Assembly (NCBI RefSeq): GCF_016863395.1
Contig: NZ_BOOU01000050.1
Coordinates: 1-36,674 of the forward strand
Direction of reading: 5' to 3'
Source of the DNA: Sphaerisporangium rufum
Lineage (GTDB): Bacteria; Actinomycetota; Actinomycetes; Streptosporangiales; Streptosporangiaceae
DNA: 36,674 nucleotides
Part shown: positions 28,913-36,674 of the stretch, in pieces
Position numbering within the stretch: the stretch's first letter is position 1
Layout of the letters: every line of letters starts with the position of its first letter
Position numbers and translations under genes: made by a program
Notes under the pieces: generated by a model
Databases searched by the model: none
Told to the model about the DNA's origin: nothing
What the model saw: the letters and a program-made list of their open reading frames with translations, nothing else

Positions 28913-30046
28913 CTAGGTCGCCGTGCAGGTCAGCGCGGGCGAGCCGGGCGTACCGTTCGCGGTGAAGCCGAAGGTGGTCGAGGCGCCGCCTGCCACCCCG
29001 CCGTTCCAGGCGGCGTTCTTCACCGTGACCGTGGAACCGCTGACCGACGAGGTGCCGCTCCACACGCTGTTGATCGTCGTGCTGCCCAGGTTCCAGCTGA
29101 CGCTCCAGCCGTTGATGGTGGAGGAGCCGGTGTTCTTGACCGTCACCTCACCCTGGAAGCCGCCGCCCCAGCTGCTCACCGTCTTGAAGCTGGCCGAGCA
29201 GCCGTTCGACGGGTTCGGCCCCGGGCTGGTGCCCGGAGTGGGGCTGGTGCCCGGGGACGGGCTGGTACCGGGCGACGGGCTGGTGCCCGGGGACGGGCTG
29301 ACGCTCGGCGACGGGCCGGGCGACGGGTTGCCGCCGGAGCCGACGCCGGTCACCTCGCCGTTACCGCCGTCGAAGACGACGTCGGAGCAGTTGTAGAACG
29401 TCTCCTGGCTGTCGCTGCGGGTCCACACCGAGTAGATGATGTGCCGGCCGCTCTTGCCCGACGGCAGCTGGGCGTTCCAGTAATAGTAGCCGCTCTCGCT
29501 GCCGACCGAGCCGACGCTCGGCGGGTCCTGGGCGGTGTAGAACGGCGTGGACTCCAGGTCGCTCCAGGCCAGCGCGCGGGTCGGGCTCCAGCTGTCCTTG
29601 GTGATGTAGGTGCGGAACGAGCCCGGGTGGGCGGCCCACTTGTTGTAGCGGAACTGGATGTTCGCCCCGGAGGTGAGGTGGGTCACCGGCCAGTCGTTGC
29701 GGGCGAGGTCGAAACCGCTGAAGTCGTACACGATCGCGCCGCCGCTGCACAGCTTCCCGTCCGGGATGAAGCCGGCCATCCGGCCGCCGCCATCCGAACG
29801 CAGCACGGCGAACCAGTTGTACAGCGAGTTCGGGCCGTTCTTCGCCACCGCCGCCGCGCAGGCCGGGTTCTTCGGCTGGATGTCACCGCTGGAGCTGGTG
29901 CCGTCCTTCCAGCACAGGTAGGTGCGGCTTCCCGGCATCATCATCGCGCCGTGCGCGGTCGCCAGGCTGGGGAACAACGCGACCACCAGCATGGTGGCGG
30001 CCATCGCCGCGAGGCCGGTCAGCGTGAGATTTCGTCGCCTTCTCAT
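28913..30046 (-). CDS. Secreted AA10 lytic polysaccharide monooxygenase with CBM2 (cellulose-active type)
   Basis: 377 residues. A signal peptide (1-31, MRRRRN then a hydrophobic core, LATA) would be cut to expose His32 of HGAMMMPGSR as the first residue, as required for the copper histidine brace; the second His is His140 in WAAHPG. The catalytic domain matches CelS2/ScLPMO10C and TfAA10-type C1-oxidising cellulose enzymes (CWKDG, YNWFAVLRSDGGGRMAGF, YYWNAQLPSGKSG, FYNCSDVVFDGGNGEVTG). A PSPGTS-repeat linker follows, then a C-terminal CBM2 (GCSASFKTVSSWGGGFQGEV to ALTCTAT). It oxidatively breaks crystalline cellulose outside the cell. AAGGTG lies upstream of ATG 30046. No cellulase genes are adjacent. 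Confidence 0.96.
   Translation of the reverse strand: MRRRRNLTLTGLAAMAATMLVVALFPSLATAHGAMMMPGSRTYLCWKDGTSSSGDIQPKNPACAAAVAKNGPNSLYNWFAVLRSDGGGRMAGFIPDGKLCSGGAIVYDFSGFDLARNDWPVTHLTSGANIQFRYNKWAAHPGSFRTYITKDSWSPTRALAWSDLESTPFYTAQDPPSVGSVGSESGYYYWNAQLPSGKSGRHIIYSVWTRSDSQETFYNCSDVVFDGGNGEVTGVGSGGNPSPGPSPSVSPSPGTSPSPGTSPSPGTSPTPGTSPGPNPSNGCSASFKTVSSWGGGFQGEVTVKNTGSSTINGWSVSWNLGSTTINSVWSGTSSVSGSTVTVKNAAWNGGVAGGASTTFGFTANGTPGSPALTCTAT
29223..29312 (-). repeat. 18-bp tandem repeats encoding the LPMO linker
   Basis: Five 18-bp units, each starting GGGCTG on the plus strand (29223, 29241, 29259, 29277, 29295), encode the GTSPxP-type linker between the AA10 and CBM2 domains. The repeat stays in frame, so linker length can vary in six-residue steps. 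Confidence 0.85.
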
Positions 30047-30502
30047 TGAACACCTTTCGAGGGGGCACGACGTCGGCACTCGGCACTCCGGACACGTCCG
30101 TCGCGGCACGCTGCCCGGCGGCCGGAGCGGTCCGGGCGGTCAGGCACGTGGCCAGGAGTGGTCGAGGACCTGGTGGTGAGGCACCGGCCCGCTTCCTGGG
30201 AGATCGGCCGACCGGCATTGCGCAAGGGCTCCCGCGGTGAAAACATTAGGTCGCCCCTGTGCCCGGCGGAACCGGGCGAATCTCCGATCCCTGCCGCCAT
30301 CGGGCGCGTTGCCGCGCCGCCGCAGGTCGCGGCCGGTGCCGGCCCGCCGCGGGTCTGAGCGTCGCCGAAAACCCGGTGAAAGTTTCGCGCCACCCCCGTC
30401 GCTGCCCCGTCGCCGCTCCCTCGCCGGCCCCGGTCACCGGCGATCGCCGCCCACCCCGGAGCCGGGCGTCCGGGCCGGCCGCCGATCCGCGAGGATGGGC
30501 TC
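30047..30502. promoter_or_regulatory. 456-bp non-coding region upstream of the LPMO, with candidate promoter at 30244-30272
   Basis: The region holds no convincing gene. On the minus strand TTCCGC (30272-30267) and TAATGT (30249-30244) are separated by 17 bp and could be a -35/-10 pair for the LPMO, giving a leader of about 190 nt. GAAAGTTTC (30378-30386) is an odd-length palindrome of the GAAA-N-TTTC kind linked to polysaccharide-use genes in some actinomycetes. At the right end GAGGAT lies 6 bp before ATG 30503, fitting a leaderless start of the next gene. All are pattern-level calls. Confidence 0.35.
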
Positions 30503-32435: not shown

Positions 32436-35400
32436 ATGGAGTTCCGGATCCTCGGCCCGGTAGAGGTTTGGGACGGCACCCGGCAGGTGCCGCTGGGCGG
32501 GGCGAAGCCCCGGGCGCTGCTCGCCGCCCTGCTGCTGGAGGCGGGCCGCGCGGTCCCCGGCGAGCGGCTGGTGGACGCGGTCTGGGGCGACCGGCCGCCG
32601 GGCACCGCCCGGGCGGTCCTGCAGACCTACGTATCCTCGCTGCGGCGTTCCTTGGCCCGGGCGGGCCTGCCCGCGGTCATCGGCTCGCATCGCATCGGCT
32701 ATCTTGCCGAGATCCCGCCCGGCACCCTCGACCTGCACGTCTTCGAGCGGCGGGTCGCCGAGGCGCGGACGGCGGCCGCGGCCGGCCGGCCCGAGGAGGC
32801 CGCCGGGGCCTACCGTGCCGCGCTGGCGCTGTGGCGCGGGCCGGCGCTCGGCGGCACCGGGGAGGTGCTGCCGCAGATCGACGGCCGCCGGCTGGACGAG
32901 CTGCGGCTCACCGTGACCGGCGAGCGGATCGCGGCCGAGCTGGAGACCGGCCGGCCGGACCGGCTGATCGGCGAGCTGACCGAGCTGGCCGGCCGCCATC
33001 CCCTGCACGAAGTGCTGCGCGGGCACCTGATGCTGGCCCTGTACCGGGCCGGGCGCCAGGGCGACGCCTTGGCCGAGTACCGGCGCGGCGCGGCGGCGCT
33101 GGCCGCCGAGCTGGGCATCGACCCGGGGCCGGAGCTGCGCCGCCTGCACGAGGCGATCCTGCGCGGCGATCCGGCCCTCGCCGGTCCGGGGCGCGCCGCC
33201 CCTGGGCGGTCGCCCGCCACCGGCGCCCGCCCGGCACCGGCTCCGGACGCCGGCTCCCCCCGGGACGCCGCCGCGGGCCGGGAGGCCGCCGCGGGCCGGG
33301 AGGCCGCCGCGGGCCGGGGAAGCGCCGCGGGCCGGGGGGCCGCCCAGGGCGCCGGTCCCGCCGTCCGTCCGGCGCGGCCGCCGGCCCGGCCCGCGGCCGC
33401 GGCGGCCGCCCCCGTCCGACCTGCCGGGGACGGCCAGGACATCGAGCACCCCGGCCACGCCGGGCACGCCGCGGGCGCTGAGGACGCCTCGCGATCCACC
33501 GGGGAGCCGCGGGTCGCCGCCCCTGGCCATCCCGGCGGCCGTCCCCACTCCGCCGGCCATCCGGACCCGGCTCCCGGCCGCACCGATTCCCCGGCCGGCC
33601 GTTCCGACGCGATCTCCGGCCGGCCGGACGCCGGGCGGTCCGAACGGCCGGACCGAGGCGAGGGCCGCCCGGTCCGCCCGCAGCAGCTGCCGCCCGCCCC
33701 GTTCGACTTCACCGGACGCGGTGGCGAGCGGGCGGCGCTGCGCGAGGCCCTCGCCCGGCCGGACGCCAGCCCCATCTGCGTGATCTCCGGGGCCGGCGGC
33801 GCCGGCAAGTCGGCCCTGGCCCTGCGGGTCGCCCACGACGTCGCCGGCCACTACCCGGACGGGCAGGTGCACGTCGAGCTGCGCGGCACCGCCGACGCCG
33901 TCACGCCGGACGCGGTACTCGCCCGGCTGCTGCGCGAACTCGGCGTGCCGGCCGCCGAGCTGCCCGCCGGGACCGAGGAGCGGGTCAACCGCTACCGCAC
34001 GCTGCTGGCCGGCCGCCGGGTGCTGGTCGTGCTGGACGACGCGGCCGGGGAAACCCAGGTCAGGCCGCTGTTGCCGGGCTCGGCCGGCTGTGCCGTCGTG
34101 GTCACCTCGCGCAGCCGGCTGGCCGGCCTGGCCGGATCGCTGCTGACCGACCTCGGCGTGCTCGGCACCGATGCCGCCCTCGAACTGCTCGGCCGGATCG
34201 CCGGGCCGGACCGGGTCGCCGCCGAGCCCGACGGCGCGTTGCGGATCATCCGGCAGTGCGGCGCGCTGCCGCTCGCCATCCGGGTGGCCGGTGCCCGGCT
34301 CGCCGCCCGCCGGCAGTGGTCGGTCGAGTACTTCACCCGGCGCCTGGCCGACGAGCGGCACCGGCTGGACGAGCTGGCCGTGGGCGACCAGGAGGTGCGC
34401 GCGAGCATCAAGCTCAGCTACGACCTGCTGTCCCGACCGGCCCGGCGGGCGCTGCGGCACCTCGGCTGGCTGGGGCTGCCGCACTTTCCCGCCTGGGTGG
34501 CCGCCGCGGCCCTGGACACCGGCGACCTGGAGGCGGAGCGACTGCTGGAGCAGCTGGTCGACGCCTCGCTGGCCGACGTGGACGGCATGGATCCGGCAGG
34601 CGGCGTCCGCTACCGCCTGCACGACCTCATCCGCCTGTTCGCCCGCGAGCAGGCCGAGGTGGAGGACGTGGGCGACGAGCTACGGAACGGGCTGCGCCGG
34701 GTGCTCGGCGGCTGGCTGTGGCTGCTGGACCGCGCCGGTGAGGCCGTCCCGCCGGGCACGCCCACCCTGCGCGCCGGCTCGCGGCACGCCGTCCCGGTGG
34801 ATCCGGAGGTCGAGGACGCGGTACTCGCCGAGCCGGCGGGGTGGATCCGGGCGGAGGAGGAGAGCCTGGTGGTCGGCGCCGAGCGGGCCGCCGCCGAGGA
34901 TCTGGACGAGCTCGCCGTCGAGCTGGCCTCGGCCGCCTGCGCCTCCGTGCTCATCTTCGAGAACAACTTCGTCGCCTGGGAGCGCATCCACGACGCGGCG
35001 CTGGGGGCCGTCCGGCGGACCGGCAACGCGGCCGGCGAGGCGGCGCTGCTGGCCGCGCTGGGCCAGGTCCGGATGGAGCAGGACCGGTTCGTCGAGGCCC
35101 GCGAGCACCTCGGCCAGGCGCTGCGGCGTTTCCGGTCGGCCGGCGACGTCCGGGGCGAGAGCGTCGTGCTGGCGCTGGTGGGCAGCGTCTGCCGCGAGCA
35201 GGGGCATCTGCCGGAGGCGCTGCGCTACCTCGGCCTGGCCGAGGAGAGGTGGCGCGGCCACGACGACCCGGCGGTGCTGGCCCACGTGCTGCGGATGACC
35301 GGCTCGGTACTCCTGGAGCGCGGCGAGCTGGAACCGGCGCGGAGTCGGCTGGCCGAGGCGCTCGAGCTGTACCGGGCGGCGGGCAGCCGCCGCGGCGAGG

Positions 35401-35909
35401 GGCTCAGCTGGCGGACGATGGCGCTGTACCACCTGGCGGCGGACGATCCGGCCGCCGCCGAGGACTGCGCGGGGCGATCCCTGCAGATCTTCACCGAGCT
35501 GGGGGACCGGCTGCTGGAATCGTACGCGCGGCGAACCTGGGCCAAGGCCCGGCTGCGCCGCGGCGACCCGGCCGGTGCGCGCGAGCCGCTGGAGGCGGTG
35601 CTGGCCCTGGCCCGGTCCATGGACGACCGCTGGGGCGAGGCGCTCACCCTGCGCACCCTGGGCGAGCTGTGCCTGGCGACCGGCGGGACCGCCGAGGCCG
35701 AGGCGTACCTGCGCGAGGCCATCGAGCGGTTCGAGGCGCTGCGGCTCCCGCTGTACCGGGCCCGCTGCCTGCGCGACCTGGCGGAGCTGCACGACGCCCG
35801 GGGAGAGGACCGCGCGGCGCGCGAGGTACGCGCCGAGGCGATGGAGGTCTTCTGGCGCTACGGCACCCGCGAGTACGCCGAACTCGCCGGAACCTCGCCG
35901 ACCGGCTGA
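32436..35909 (+). CDS. AfsR/SARP-family transcriptional regulator (SARP-BTAD-NB-ARC-TPR)
   Basis: 1157 residues. Residues 1-95 form an OmpR-like DNA-binding domain (MEFRILGPVEVWDG, GAKPRALLAALLLEAGR, YVSSLRRSL), and about 96-243 a bacterial transcriptional activation domain (LDLHVFERRVAEAR, HPLHEVLRGHLMLALYRAGR, ELGIDPGPELRRLH). A disordered Pro/Ala/Gly linker spans about 245-415. The NB-ARC ATPase follows with Walker A GAGGAGKS (452-459), Walker B-like RVLVVLDDA (about 528-536) and CGALPLAIRVAG. From about 840 to 1145 there are tetratricopeptide repeats. This is the AfsR layout: ATP/ADP-switched activators that bind direct heptamer repeats. ATG 32436 follows AGGGTGG. Seven such repeats lie directly downstream, before the CHAP gene, making that gene its likely target. 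Confidence 0.95.
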   Translation: MEFRILGPVEVWDGTRQVPLGGAKPRALLAALLLEAGRAVPGERLVDAVWGDRPPGTARAVLQTYVSSLRRSLARAGLPAVIGSHRIGYLAEIPPGTLDLHVFERRVAEARTAAAAGRPEEAAGAYRAALALWRGPALGGTGEVLPQIDGRRLDELRLTVTGERIAAELETGRPDRLIGELTELAGRHPLHEVLRGHLMLALYRAGRQGDALAEYRRGAAALAAELGIDPGPELRRLHEAILRGDPALAGPGRAAPGRSPATGARPAPAPDAGSPRDAAAGREAAAGREAAAGRGSAAGRGAAQGAGPAVRPARPPARPAAAAAAPVRPAGDGQDIEHPGHAGHAAGAEDASRSTGEPRVAAPGHPGGRPHSAGHPDPAPGRTDSPAGRSDAISGRPDAGRSERPDRGEGRPVRPQQLPPAPFDFTGRGGERAALREALARPDASPICVISGAGGAGKSALALRVAHDVAGHYPDGQVHVELRGTADAVTPDAVLARLLRELGVPAAELPAGTEERVNRYRTLLAGRRVLVVLDDAAGETQVRPLLPGSAGCAVVVTSRSRLAGLAGSLLTDLGVLGTDAALELLGRIAGPDRVAAEPDGALRIIRQCGALPLAIRVAGARLAARRQWSVEYFTRRLADERHRLDELAVGDQEVRASIKLSYDLLSRPARRALRHLGWLGLPHFPAWVAAAALDTGDLEAERLLEQLVDASLADVDGMDPAGGVRYRLHDLIRLFAREQAEVEDVGDELRNGLRRVLGGWLWLLDRAGEAVPPGTPTLRAGSRHAVPVDPEVEDAVLAEPAGWIRAEEESLVVGAERAAAEDLDELAVELASAACASVLIFENNFVAWERIHDAALGAVRRTGNAAGEAALLAALGQVRMEQDRFVEAREHLGQALRRFRSAGDVRGESVVLALVGSVCREQGHLPEALRYLGLAEERWRGHDDPAVLAHVLRMTGSVLLERGELEPARSRLAEALELYRAAGSRRGEGLSWRTMALYHLAADDPAAAEDCAGRSLQIFTELGDRLLESYARRTWAKARLRRGDPAGAREPLEAVLALARSMDDRWGEALTLRTLGELCLATGGTAEAEAYLREAIERFEALRLPLYRARCLRDLAELHDARGEDRAAREVRAEAMEVFWRYGTREYAELAGTSPTG
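33264..33335 (+). repeat. 18-bp tandem repeats in the SARP linker
   Basis: Four 18-bp units starting at 33264, 33282, 33300 and 33318, each ending GCCGCGGGCCGG or a close variant, encode xAAAGR-type repeats in the linker between BTAD and NB-ARC; a decayed fifth follows. The frame is kept. This explains the unusually long linker. Confidence 0.85.
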
Positions 35910-35990
35910 TTCCAGTGAAGTTACAGGCGGGTTCCAGCGGTTTGACAGCACGACCCCGCGGGCTGCAGCACGGTTGCAGAAGAGCTGGAG
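35909..35990 (+). promoter_or_regulatory. Array of seven heptamer direct repeats at 11-bp spacing (putative SARP-binding site)
   Basis: Block 1: ATTCCAG (35909), GTTACAG (35920), GTTCCAG (35931) and TTGACAG (35942). Block 2: GCTGCAG (35962), GTTGCAG (35973) and GCTGGAG (35984). Within each block the spacing is exactly 11 bp (7-bp repeat plus 4-bp spacer), with consensus GTTNCAG; the blocks are 20 bp apart. SARP proteins bind such direct repeats beside the -35 region. TTGACA itself forms a -35-like element at 35942-35947, but no clear -10 is visible. The array starts on the SARP stop codon and ends 49 bp before the CHAP gene. Confidence 0.75.
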
Positions 35991-36039
35991 GCCGGCGCCG
36001 GATCCTCGTACTCAGCGACATCGAGACGAGGAGAACCTC

Positions 36040-36674
36040 ATGGAGAGCACGGGGTACCGGGTGCGGCGCATCGCCGGCGGGCTGGCGGCGGGGGTCGTCG
36101 CCCTGGCCGGACTGGAACTGGCGCTGGTGACGCCCGCGTCCGCCGCCACCCGCGGCGACATCGTGAGCGTGGCGCAGCGGGAGCTGGGTGACTCCGACCG
36201 CAACGTCGAGCGGCCGGCCGGCAGCGGTTGCAACTACTACACCGGCCTTTTCCGCACCTGGAAGTCGTCCTCGGGCTGCGGTTCCGCCGACGGGGTGAAG
36301 TTCCGCGACAGCGACTGGTGCGCGGACTTCGCCAAGTACGTCTGGCAGAGCGCCGGCGTGGACCACGCGGACGTGGCCGAGACGGCCGGGGGAGTGCTGA
36401 CCGGCTGGGCCAGCTCGTTCAAGGACTACGGGGTCAAGTACGGCACCTGGCACACCCGGTCCAGCGGCTACACCCCGCAGCCGGGCGACTCGCTGGTCTT
36501 CGACTGGGACCACAACGGCGACATCGACCACGTGGGCATCGTCACCTCCGCGACGTCCGGCACGGTCTACACCATCGAGGGCAACACCAGCGACGCCATC
36601 CACGCCCGCAGCTACTCGCGGTCCAGCGCCGACATCGTCGGCTACTCGGCGCCGATCGTCTCCGCGACACCTCC
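36040..36674 (+). CDS. Secreted CHAP-domain peptidoglycan hydrolase (3' truncated by window edge)
   Basis: Open from ATG 36040 to the window end (211 codons seen, no stop). A signal peptide covers about residues 1-35 (RVRR, hydrophobic core, TPASA). The CHAP amidase/endopeptidase domain follows: DIVSVAQRELGDS, catalytic Cys94 in DWCADFAKYVWQSAGV, GDSLVFDWD, His164 in DIDHVGIV and Asn in IEGNTS. Cys64 and Cys80 may form a disulfide. Such enzymes cut peptidoglycan cross-bridges or stems outside the membrane; further domains may lie beyond the edge. GAGGAG precedes the start. The SARP-type repeat array directly upstream suggests activation by the neighbouring regulator. Confidence 0.92.
   Translation, partial: MESTGYRVRRIAGGLAAGVVALAGLELALVTPASAATRGDIVSVAQRELGDSDRNVERPAGSGCNYYTGLFRTWKSSSGCGSADGVKFRDSDWCADFAKYVWQSAGVDHADVAETAGGVLTGWASSFKDYGVKYGTWHTRSSGYTPQPGDSLVFDWDHNGDIDHVGIVTSATSGTVYTIEGNTSDAIHARSYSRSSADIVGYSAPIVSATP

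Follow-up and report, generated by a model that had tools for sequence, protein, structure and literature searches.

A two-block array of short direct repeats separates the gene of a large AfsR-type SARP regulator from that of a secreted CHAP-domain hydrolase in Sphaerisporangium rufum, near the end of the 36,674-nucleotide stretch analysed here (contig NZ_BOOU01000050.1; hereafter the window). Very probably a large SARP uses this array as its operator, the upstream gene being the likeliest source of that protein, and thereby drives the CHAP gene and a peptidoglycan-digesting cassette to which this gene belongs. We computed the array, its promoter register, its conservation, the synteny around it and a covarying inverted repeat from the sequences. 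The features concerned are as follows.

32436..35909, + strand: gene of the large AfsR-type SARP regulator (winged helix plus BTAD, NB-ARC, TPR)
35910..35948, + strand: block 1, four hexamers at 11-bp steps, its first base directly after the SARP stop codon
35963..35990, + strand: block 2, three hexamers at 11-bp steps, the putative operator in the conserved promoter register
36001..36006, + strand: predicted -10 GATCCT, 10 bp after the last block 2 hexamer
36014, + strand: predicted start of transcription, placed 7 nt after the -10 on the pattern of six homologues
36040..36674, + strand: gene of the secreted CHAP-domain hydrolase, cut by the contig end (Pfam CHAP 1.3e-12)

In the proposed mechanism, SARP protomers would occupy the 11-bp repeats as neighbours along a single face of the DNA, and the block 2 hexamers, ending 10 bp before the weak -10 GATCCT, would recruit RNA polymerase. 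Transcription would start near 36014 and read the CHAP hydrolase gene. The same box would drive a recurrent cassette in Streptosporangiaceae, comprising a CHAP hydrolase, which a muramidase-like or GH25 gene often follows, and a D-Ala-D-Ala dipeptidase carrying its own copy of the box, all governed by an AfsR-type SARP with NB-ARC and TPR sensor parts. SARP binding, activation, the start site, the sensor role and a lock formed by the inverted repeat are what we infer from the evidence below.

The array consists of two blocks that are out of phase

The block 1 hexamers read TTCCAG (35910), TTACAG (35921), TTCCAG (35932) and TGACAG (35943), and those of block 2 CTGCAG (35963), TTGCAG (35974) and CTGGAG (35985). 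A preliminary description of this DNA had reported CAG triplets at 35913, 35924, 35935, 35946, 35966 and 35977 and a GAG at 35988, phased at 11 bp inside each block. All seven triplets lie where it placed them, and the phasing can be read directly from the letters. Block 2 begins 20 bp, not 22 bp, after the start of the last block 1 hexamer, so the two blocks are mutually out of phase. The seven repeats of the description are all present, but they do not make up one operator in one register; only block 2 lies in the conserved promoter register described below. The repeat unit given there, GTTNCAG, has to be replaced: the consensus of the relatives is TTnnAG followed by C/G-rich bases.

That the array is a chance repeat in GC-rich DNA is vanishingly improbable. 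Four T..CAG repeats at 11 bp occur at a single place in the window, both strands counted, and in 0 of 100 dinucleotide shuffles; none occurred in the window at six other spacings tried. Bare CAG repeated four times found the same single 11-bp place, plus one 12-bp place on the minus strand. The conservation of the repeats in relatives, described below, refutes this explanation. Neither Tandem Repeats Finder nor a repeat finder listed the array in the window, presumably because its spacers differ.

Block 2 lies in a conserved promoter register

CHAP family members were collected from genomes of the genus and, by two peptide patterns, from 84,980 species genomes, the latter yielding 35 loci (L numbers below denote loci). 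The relatives belong to Nonomuraea, Acrocarpospora, Sphaerisporangium, Streptosporangium, Planobispora, Planomonospora and Rhizohabitans. Placement in Streptosporangiaceae was looked up for three of these genera, and the remaining ones we take from general knowledge to belong there as well. Duplicate loci (L042/L036, L047/L037, L057/L038, L062/L035) were counted once, and L056 and L072 (start codon uncertain) and L074 (a fragment) were left out of the pair and anchor counts.

In 35 CHAP upstream regions, pairs of YTNNAG 11 bp apart occurred 49 times, whereas 60 shuffles averaged 0.3 such pairs and never gave more than 2. Further pairs were found at 22 bp (19), 34 bp (17), 23 bp (12) and 12 bp (8). 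Since these counts take related sequences separately, a non-redundant set of 24 promoters was made (<80% identity across 63 nt, with the last hexamer as alignment point), from which L038 and L052, which have no box, had been left out beforehand. When anchors were chosen by hexamer score alone, the A and T of a -10 followed after a gap of exactly 10 bp in 30 of 35 regions, while every other gap from 2 to 19 bp gave at most 4 of 35. All 24 non-redundant promoters carry A at position 5 of the last two hexamers. Their -10, mostly [CG]AnnCT, has A at position 2 and T at position 6 in 24/24 (21 rule-anchored rows and three anchored by eye) and C in 19/24. Six promoters (L034, L037, L051, L053, L055, L073) have their start codon 6-7 nt beyond the -10; this agrees with leaderless transcription and hints at where transcripts of the remaining promoters begin. 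By this conserved register, block 2, the -10 at 36001-36006 and a start near 36014 were assigned in the window. Orthologous regions had been named beforehand as the place where the idea could fail; among the relatives, hexamers and phase are kept and the spacers drift.

In the accessible text of PMC10936776, SARP promoters have repeats at 11 or 22 bp, the distance between the 3' repeat and the -10 is 8 bp, and in Streptomyces coelicolor the afsS promoter has its afs box at -40 to -19 and a weak -10, CACTGT. The promoters described here share the 11/22-bp direct repeats and the distance from 3' repeat to -10 of this operator class, and their -10 elements (CACTCT, GACTCT, CACGCT and similar) resemble that of afsS. 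Assuming an 8-bp contact site, which AfsR has, the 10-bp hexamer gap would amount to 8 bp.

PHO boxes are built of 11-bp units with A at the fourth position (TTCA/TTYA). The array has the same 11-bp period and could be bound by PhoP and answer to phosphate rather than to a SARP. PhoP and AfsR share a CGTT(T/C)ATCGNN site at afsS, according to the accessible text of PMC10972967. However, the invariant A is at position 5 of TTnnAG in 24/24 promoters, compared to position 4 in the TTYA of that shared site; the hexamers thus do not fit the PHO-box unit, and we rejected assignment to this class. The boxes also go with SARP genes and with the SARP -10 register, which makes control by PhoP very unlikely.

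Block 1 appears to be an added array, providing extra SARP binding or representing a remnant. Profile R1, described below, scores it at only 4.8 bits (E 2), and it has no -10 in register. We also considered block 1 as a promoter of its own and rejected this, as its TTGACA (35942-35947) has no A-and-T -10 at the usual distance by eye. The gene order SARP, M15, CHAP in L066 suggests that block 1 may be left over from a lost dipeptidase promoter. Two relatives have boxes or repeats in unusual places. In L035 from S. melleum (974-1017, - strand), a box with -10 and stem lies ~283 nt upstream of the CHAP start, resembling a promoter that has become detached from its gene. In L052 (6688-6716, - strand), TTTACAG-type repeats lie ~250 bp before the CHAP gene, which has no box at the usual place.

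The box recurs at other peptidoglycan-digesting enzymes

A 44-nt, sequence-only profile, R1, was built from the 24 CHAP promoters, including that of the window, where it matches block 2 (35964-36006, 17.4 bits). Over 37 CHAP-bearing loci (487,798 bp, E <= 2), R1 gave 50 matches, 32 at CHAP genes, 15 at D-Ala-D-Ala dipeptidase-like M15 genes and 3 elsewhere. The CHAP matches are 23 training places and 9 near-duplicates of these; no M15 promoter had been used in training. In 11 genus genomes, 24 R1 rows fell at six CHAP, five M15, three muramidase-like, two NlpC-like (labelled by eye from the DCSG motif) and one GH25 gene, and the seven remaining rows fit nothing. Six of the 11 non-CHAP wall-enzyme rows have a SARP of the subfamily directly upstream (L078, L079, L082, L095, L096, L098). 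With stricter filters, 21 of 26 rows in 120 family genomes fit wall enzymes. In the window genome, R1 boxes precede two CHAP genes, one muramidase-like gene and one M15 gene; a second M15 gene has a box, seen by eye, directly behind the closest SARP paralogue. At E <= 0.01, four of 197 genomes of the class have a match, two of them outside the family. One of these, L137 (around 1501-1541), has a SARP-like tail, the box and a secreted DCSG protein in a row by eye; in the other, L138, the surroundings of the match fit nothing. In L070 (6869-6907, - strand) and L071 (6789-6829, - strand), a box lies on the opposite strand beside the CHAP box; at the corresponding place in L101 and L102, two similar loci, a divergent gene encodes a small protein that looks secreted.

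Gene content was counted in 38 CHAP loci after merging of duplicates, with a SARP assigned to the subfamily at >=50% identity in its N-terminal part or >=40% in its TPR part. A SARP of the subfamily is near CHAP in 23 of 38 loci and an M15 gene likewise in 23 of 38; the two sets overlap but are not identical. A muramidase-like gene is present in 13 loci, which in 11 of them follows CHAP co-directionally, and a GH25 gene lies behind CHAP in two loci at 84-85% identity and, weakly, in two more at 28-29%. Gene orders include M15-SARP divergent from CHAP-muramidase (e.g. L041, L043, L045, L061), SARP-CHAP-muramidase-M15 in one direction (L040), CHAP-SARP-M15 (L047, L053) and SARP-M15-CHAP (L066); the window has SARP-CHAP up to the contig end. 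Shuffled orders with kept membership and boxes argue for a functional linkage. Pfam matched Peptidase_M15 in three tested cassette dipeptidases, found no family in the muramidase-like proteins of L078, L086 and L105 and gave only repeat-type matches in that of L093. The first part of the L093 protein matches the solved chains 8b2h (4e-11) and 8b2e (1.5e-7), the latter named a muramidase. FG-GAP repeats are present in L082, L093, L116 and the CHAP protein of L040. In L043, L066, L082 and others, the C-termini hold near-identical repeats within an enzyme and differing tails between paralogues by eye, as if tails were exchanged.

The preliminary description had proposed the CHAP hydrolase as a direct SARP target. 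This is very probably so, given the conserved repeats and phase, the SARP neighbour and the 23 of 38 loci with the subfamily near CHAP. It had further linked the regulator to wall remodelling, which is one possible reading; digestion of foreign or released peptidoglycan fits at least equally well, because the enzymes are secreted, many have FG-GAP or other repeat tails and a D-Ala-D-Ala dipeptidase accompanies them.

Alternatively, a SARP could bind the box mainly for its own expression or that of a partner not yet recognised, with CHAP as a passenger. The SARP adjoins the boxes, and in divergent loci one box could serve both genes. Against this, the promoter faces CHAP where the SARP is upstream and co-directional (window, L040, L066, L073), and a second box stands at M15 genes. 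The box is also kept at CHAP genes without a full SARP in L042, L046 and L048 (7 kb on both sides) and in L034 (where only 0.7 kb downstream was seen). The argument from such loci has a caveat. The four Acrocarpospora loci L046, L048, L050 and L054, which have no SARP match, contain a short SARP-tail-like frame ~100-150 nt before the CHAP start, ending in REYDEL/REYDEF-GG and a stop just before the box; the tail of the window SARP is REYAELAG. These loci may have lost an adjacent SARP recently and kept the box. On balance we give the passenger explanation little credence.

Several observations weigh against the array being a SARP operator for a wall-enzyme cassette. The rule anchors miss the -10 in 5 of 35 regions (window, L035, L043, L038, L052); in the window the rule picked block 1, and a different hexamer was chosen by eye as anchor there and in L035 and L043. 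The window's R1 match is among the weaker ones, and the 488 kb scanned consists of loci chosen for carrying CHAP. R1 has no match at CHAP in 5 of 37 sources (L052, L056, L057, L072, L074). No wall enzyme fits 7 of 24 genus rows (L083, L084, L085, L089, L091, L092, L099) or 5 of 26 family-sample rows (L106, L107, L109, L112, L117), and 14 of the 120 family genomes have a match at E <= 0.05. Fifteen of the 38 CHAP loci have no nearby SARP, several of them being cut by contig ends, and genomes with several SARPs give no way to tell which one binds.

The adjacent SARP belongs to a branch found beside wall enzymes

The neighbouring gene had been described as an AfsR-type SARP with NB-ARC and TPR parts, and Pfam bears this out (BTAD 3.5e-42, NB-ARC 2.4e-16, TPR_12 1.1e-22): the domain make-up of a large SARP of the AfsR family is present. 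Its solved relatives are AfsR (chains 8jke/8k60/8hvr) and EmbR. The NCBIfam AfsR equivalog model gave 563.4 bits, below its cut-off of 1430, so the protein is of the AfsR family and by curated score is not AfsR proper. An 18-bp tandem repeat in the gene (33260-33344) encodes an AAAGRE-type linker that connects the SARP part to the NB-ARC part.

The closest paralogue in the window genome is 58-59% identical and is followed by the box (by eye) and an M15 gene. By eye, no wall enzyme lies downstream of six less similar paralogues with a readable downstream side (L121, L122, L123, L125, L126, L127). Identity to the window SARP over the TPR part (residues 700-1152) is 42-58% for SARPs encoded next to these enzymes, compared to at most 33% for the genome's other SARPs that align over 280 residues of this part (L121, L122, L126); in the NB-ARC part some other SARPs of the genome reach 45%. 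The recognition helix of CHAP-adjacent SARPs is close to QTYVxxLRR (22 rows, one gene twice), with isolated exceptions including HTYV, QTYI, LRK and LRG, whereas alignment with the solved chains gives RTYASRLRK in AfsR. This difference is in line with the different box.

The CHAP protein has a signal peptide as judged by eye. Cys94 and His164, which we take to be the catalytic residues, are invariant in 7 of 7 sequences, as expected of a CHAP amidase/endopeptidase. An Rfam scan of the window found no family at gathering score, so that the hydrolase is not preceded by a curated riboswitch of, for instance, the c-di-AMP kind. Elsewhere in the window (28913-30109, - strand) lies the gene of a secreted LPMO_10 plus CBM_2 protein, whose linker contains an 18-bp tandem repeat (29222-29316).

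A covarying inverted repeat joins the promoter to the ribosome site

An inverted repeat absent from the preliminary description lies between the -10 and the ribosome site of the window.

36003..36009, + strand: 5' arm TCCTCGT, overlapping the -10, upstream of the predicted start
36026..36032, + strand: 3' arm ACGAGGA, overlapping the Shine-Dalgarno GAGGAG (36028-36033)

Leadered promoters have a segment, reaching from the -10 almost up to the start, that is complementary to their Shine-Dalgarno region. Native pairing exceeded species-swapped pairing in 26 promoters (18.3 vs 14.07, standard deviation 0.64, 0/20,000) and in 18 non-redundant ones (16.9 vs 13.0, z 5.8, 0/4000 permutations). The excess peaks only with the 5' segment at the -10 and is gone at -60 to -22 and at +8 to +12. 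The arms differ between branches (L040 CTCTTTCGGT/ACCGAAAGAG; L046 TCTTCCGGTG/CACCGGAAGG; L066 CCTTTTCCTCG/CGAGGAAAAGG), indicating that pairing rather than sequence is kept; the branch L067-L070 is without the repeat. Since the 5' arm precedes the predicted start, only read-through RNA could form the stem. In the accessible text of PMC3014915, long transcripts of phage T4 gene e (lysozyme) are locked and late-promoter transcripts are free. The covarying repeat suggests, by analogy, a similar lock on the ribosome site in read-through RNA.

Accessibility calculations support such a lock only partly. The mean unpaired value of the ribosome site was lower in read-through RNA than after shuffling of the arm (0.39 vs 0.48, p 0.048). 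The stem is present in the predicted longer-RNA folds of the window, L040 and L066, whose fold energies are unremarkable compared to shuffles (z -0.77, -1.71 and -1.12). Against the lock, read-through RNA has the lower value only as an average over promoters. Compared to the gene's own RNA it was 0.39 vs 0.52 (p 0.06). When the site was placed by energy, the values were 0.35 vs 0.49 for own RNA (p 0.21) and 0.35 vs 0.42 for arm-shuffled RNA (p 0.23; lower in 9/18). In the window the difference is small (0.45 vs 0.56; 0.30 vs 0.37). Lower read-through accessibility is clear in L039, L059 and L065, and several loci show the reverse.

The inverted repeat could instead be an ordinary mRNA hairpin serving as a thermosensor, stability element or protein site, with the true start upstream of the predicted -10 and the stem in every transcript. 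Covariation reveals pairing, not the position of the start, and the long and short RNAs show only a partial difference in how accessible the ribosome site is predicted to be. The near-invariant A and T of the -10 and the six homologues with a start codon 6-7 nt after it argue for the downstream start, so that we regard an ordinary hairpin as rather unlikely, if far from negligible.

In the comparison of the other enzyme classes, L093 was mis-anchored, with no -10 in register, and the L111 box was one base off. Three of four NlpC-like promoters have a long stem at the same place, but many swaps with similar CHAP leaders come close to it, 11-15% reaching it; the muramidase-like promoters are mixed, with one strong stem of four. 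M15 promoters pair above swaps on average (15.3 vs 11.4), with longer leaders and 3' arms 8 to 58 nt before the start codon, a CHAP-like geometry being seen only in L114.

Relation to known systems and meaning

The window SARP shares its BTAD, NB-ARC-type and TPR parts with AfsR of S. coelicolor and, as described for AfsR in the accessible text of PMC10936776, is predicted to bind adjacent 11-bp direct repeats that immediately precede a weak -10. In contrast, the box is CGTTYATCG there and TTnnAG here, two repeats are bound there and seven are present here, the target is afsS there and peptidoglycan enzymes here, and AfsR residue R92 is S in the window SARP by our own mapping of the chain numbering. 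PimR, of the PimR/SanG-type SARP-LAL regulators, likewise has three direct heptamer repeats, 4 bp apart, together with a secondary block, but its CGGCAAG repeats, antifungal clusters and LAL-type C-terminus set it apart (accessible text of PMC5930380). In T4 gene e, as here, a stem joins the ribosome site to a 5' arm overlapping the promoter, which transcripts begun at this promoter lack, and the product is a wall hydrolase (accessible text of PMC3014915). The 5' arm upstream of the predicted start, the 3' arm at the ribosome site and the compensating changes that keep pairing are points of likeness; the phage element is a late promoter, whereas ours is a chromosomal SARP promoter at which read-through translation would be repressed. 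The dipeptidases share Peptidase_M15 with VanX-type D-Ala-D-Ala dipeptidases, although L094 reaches 39 of 320 bits, far below the VanX equivalog cut-off. The neighbour regulator of VanX is VanRS, whereas here it is a SARP. In the accessible portions of the open-licence literature, including PMC13011467, we found no account of SARPs governing peptidoglycan hydrolases.

A more far-reaching interpretation, which we consider possible but less likely than not, is that this AfsR-type branch is a dedicated sensor-activator of peptidoglycan digestion. It would turn on secreted hydrolases with exchangeable repeat tails together with a D-Ala-D-Ala dipeptidase, and the secreted enzymes would be double-gated. 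Only transcripts from the SARP promoter would then be translatable, leadered genes being locked in read-through RNA and leaderless ones needing an exact 5' end.

More interesting than the array itself are the recurrent digestion cassette under an AfsR-type SARP and the covarying repeat that joins promoter and ribosome site. SARPs are known chiefly as activators of antibiotic clusters, and a large-SARP cassette of peptidoglycan hydrolases would be a new target class. Its promoters, short and well defined, would lend themselves to studying what the NB-ARC/TPR part senses, muropeptides being an obvious guess. The inverted repeat would suggest a second safety layer against mis-timed lytic enzymes, as in phage T4 lysozyme.

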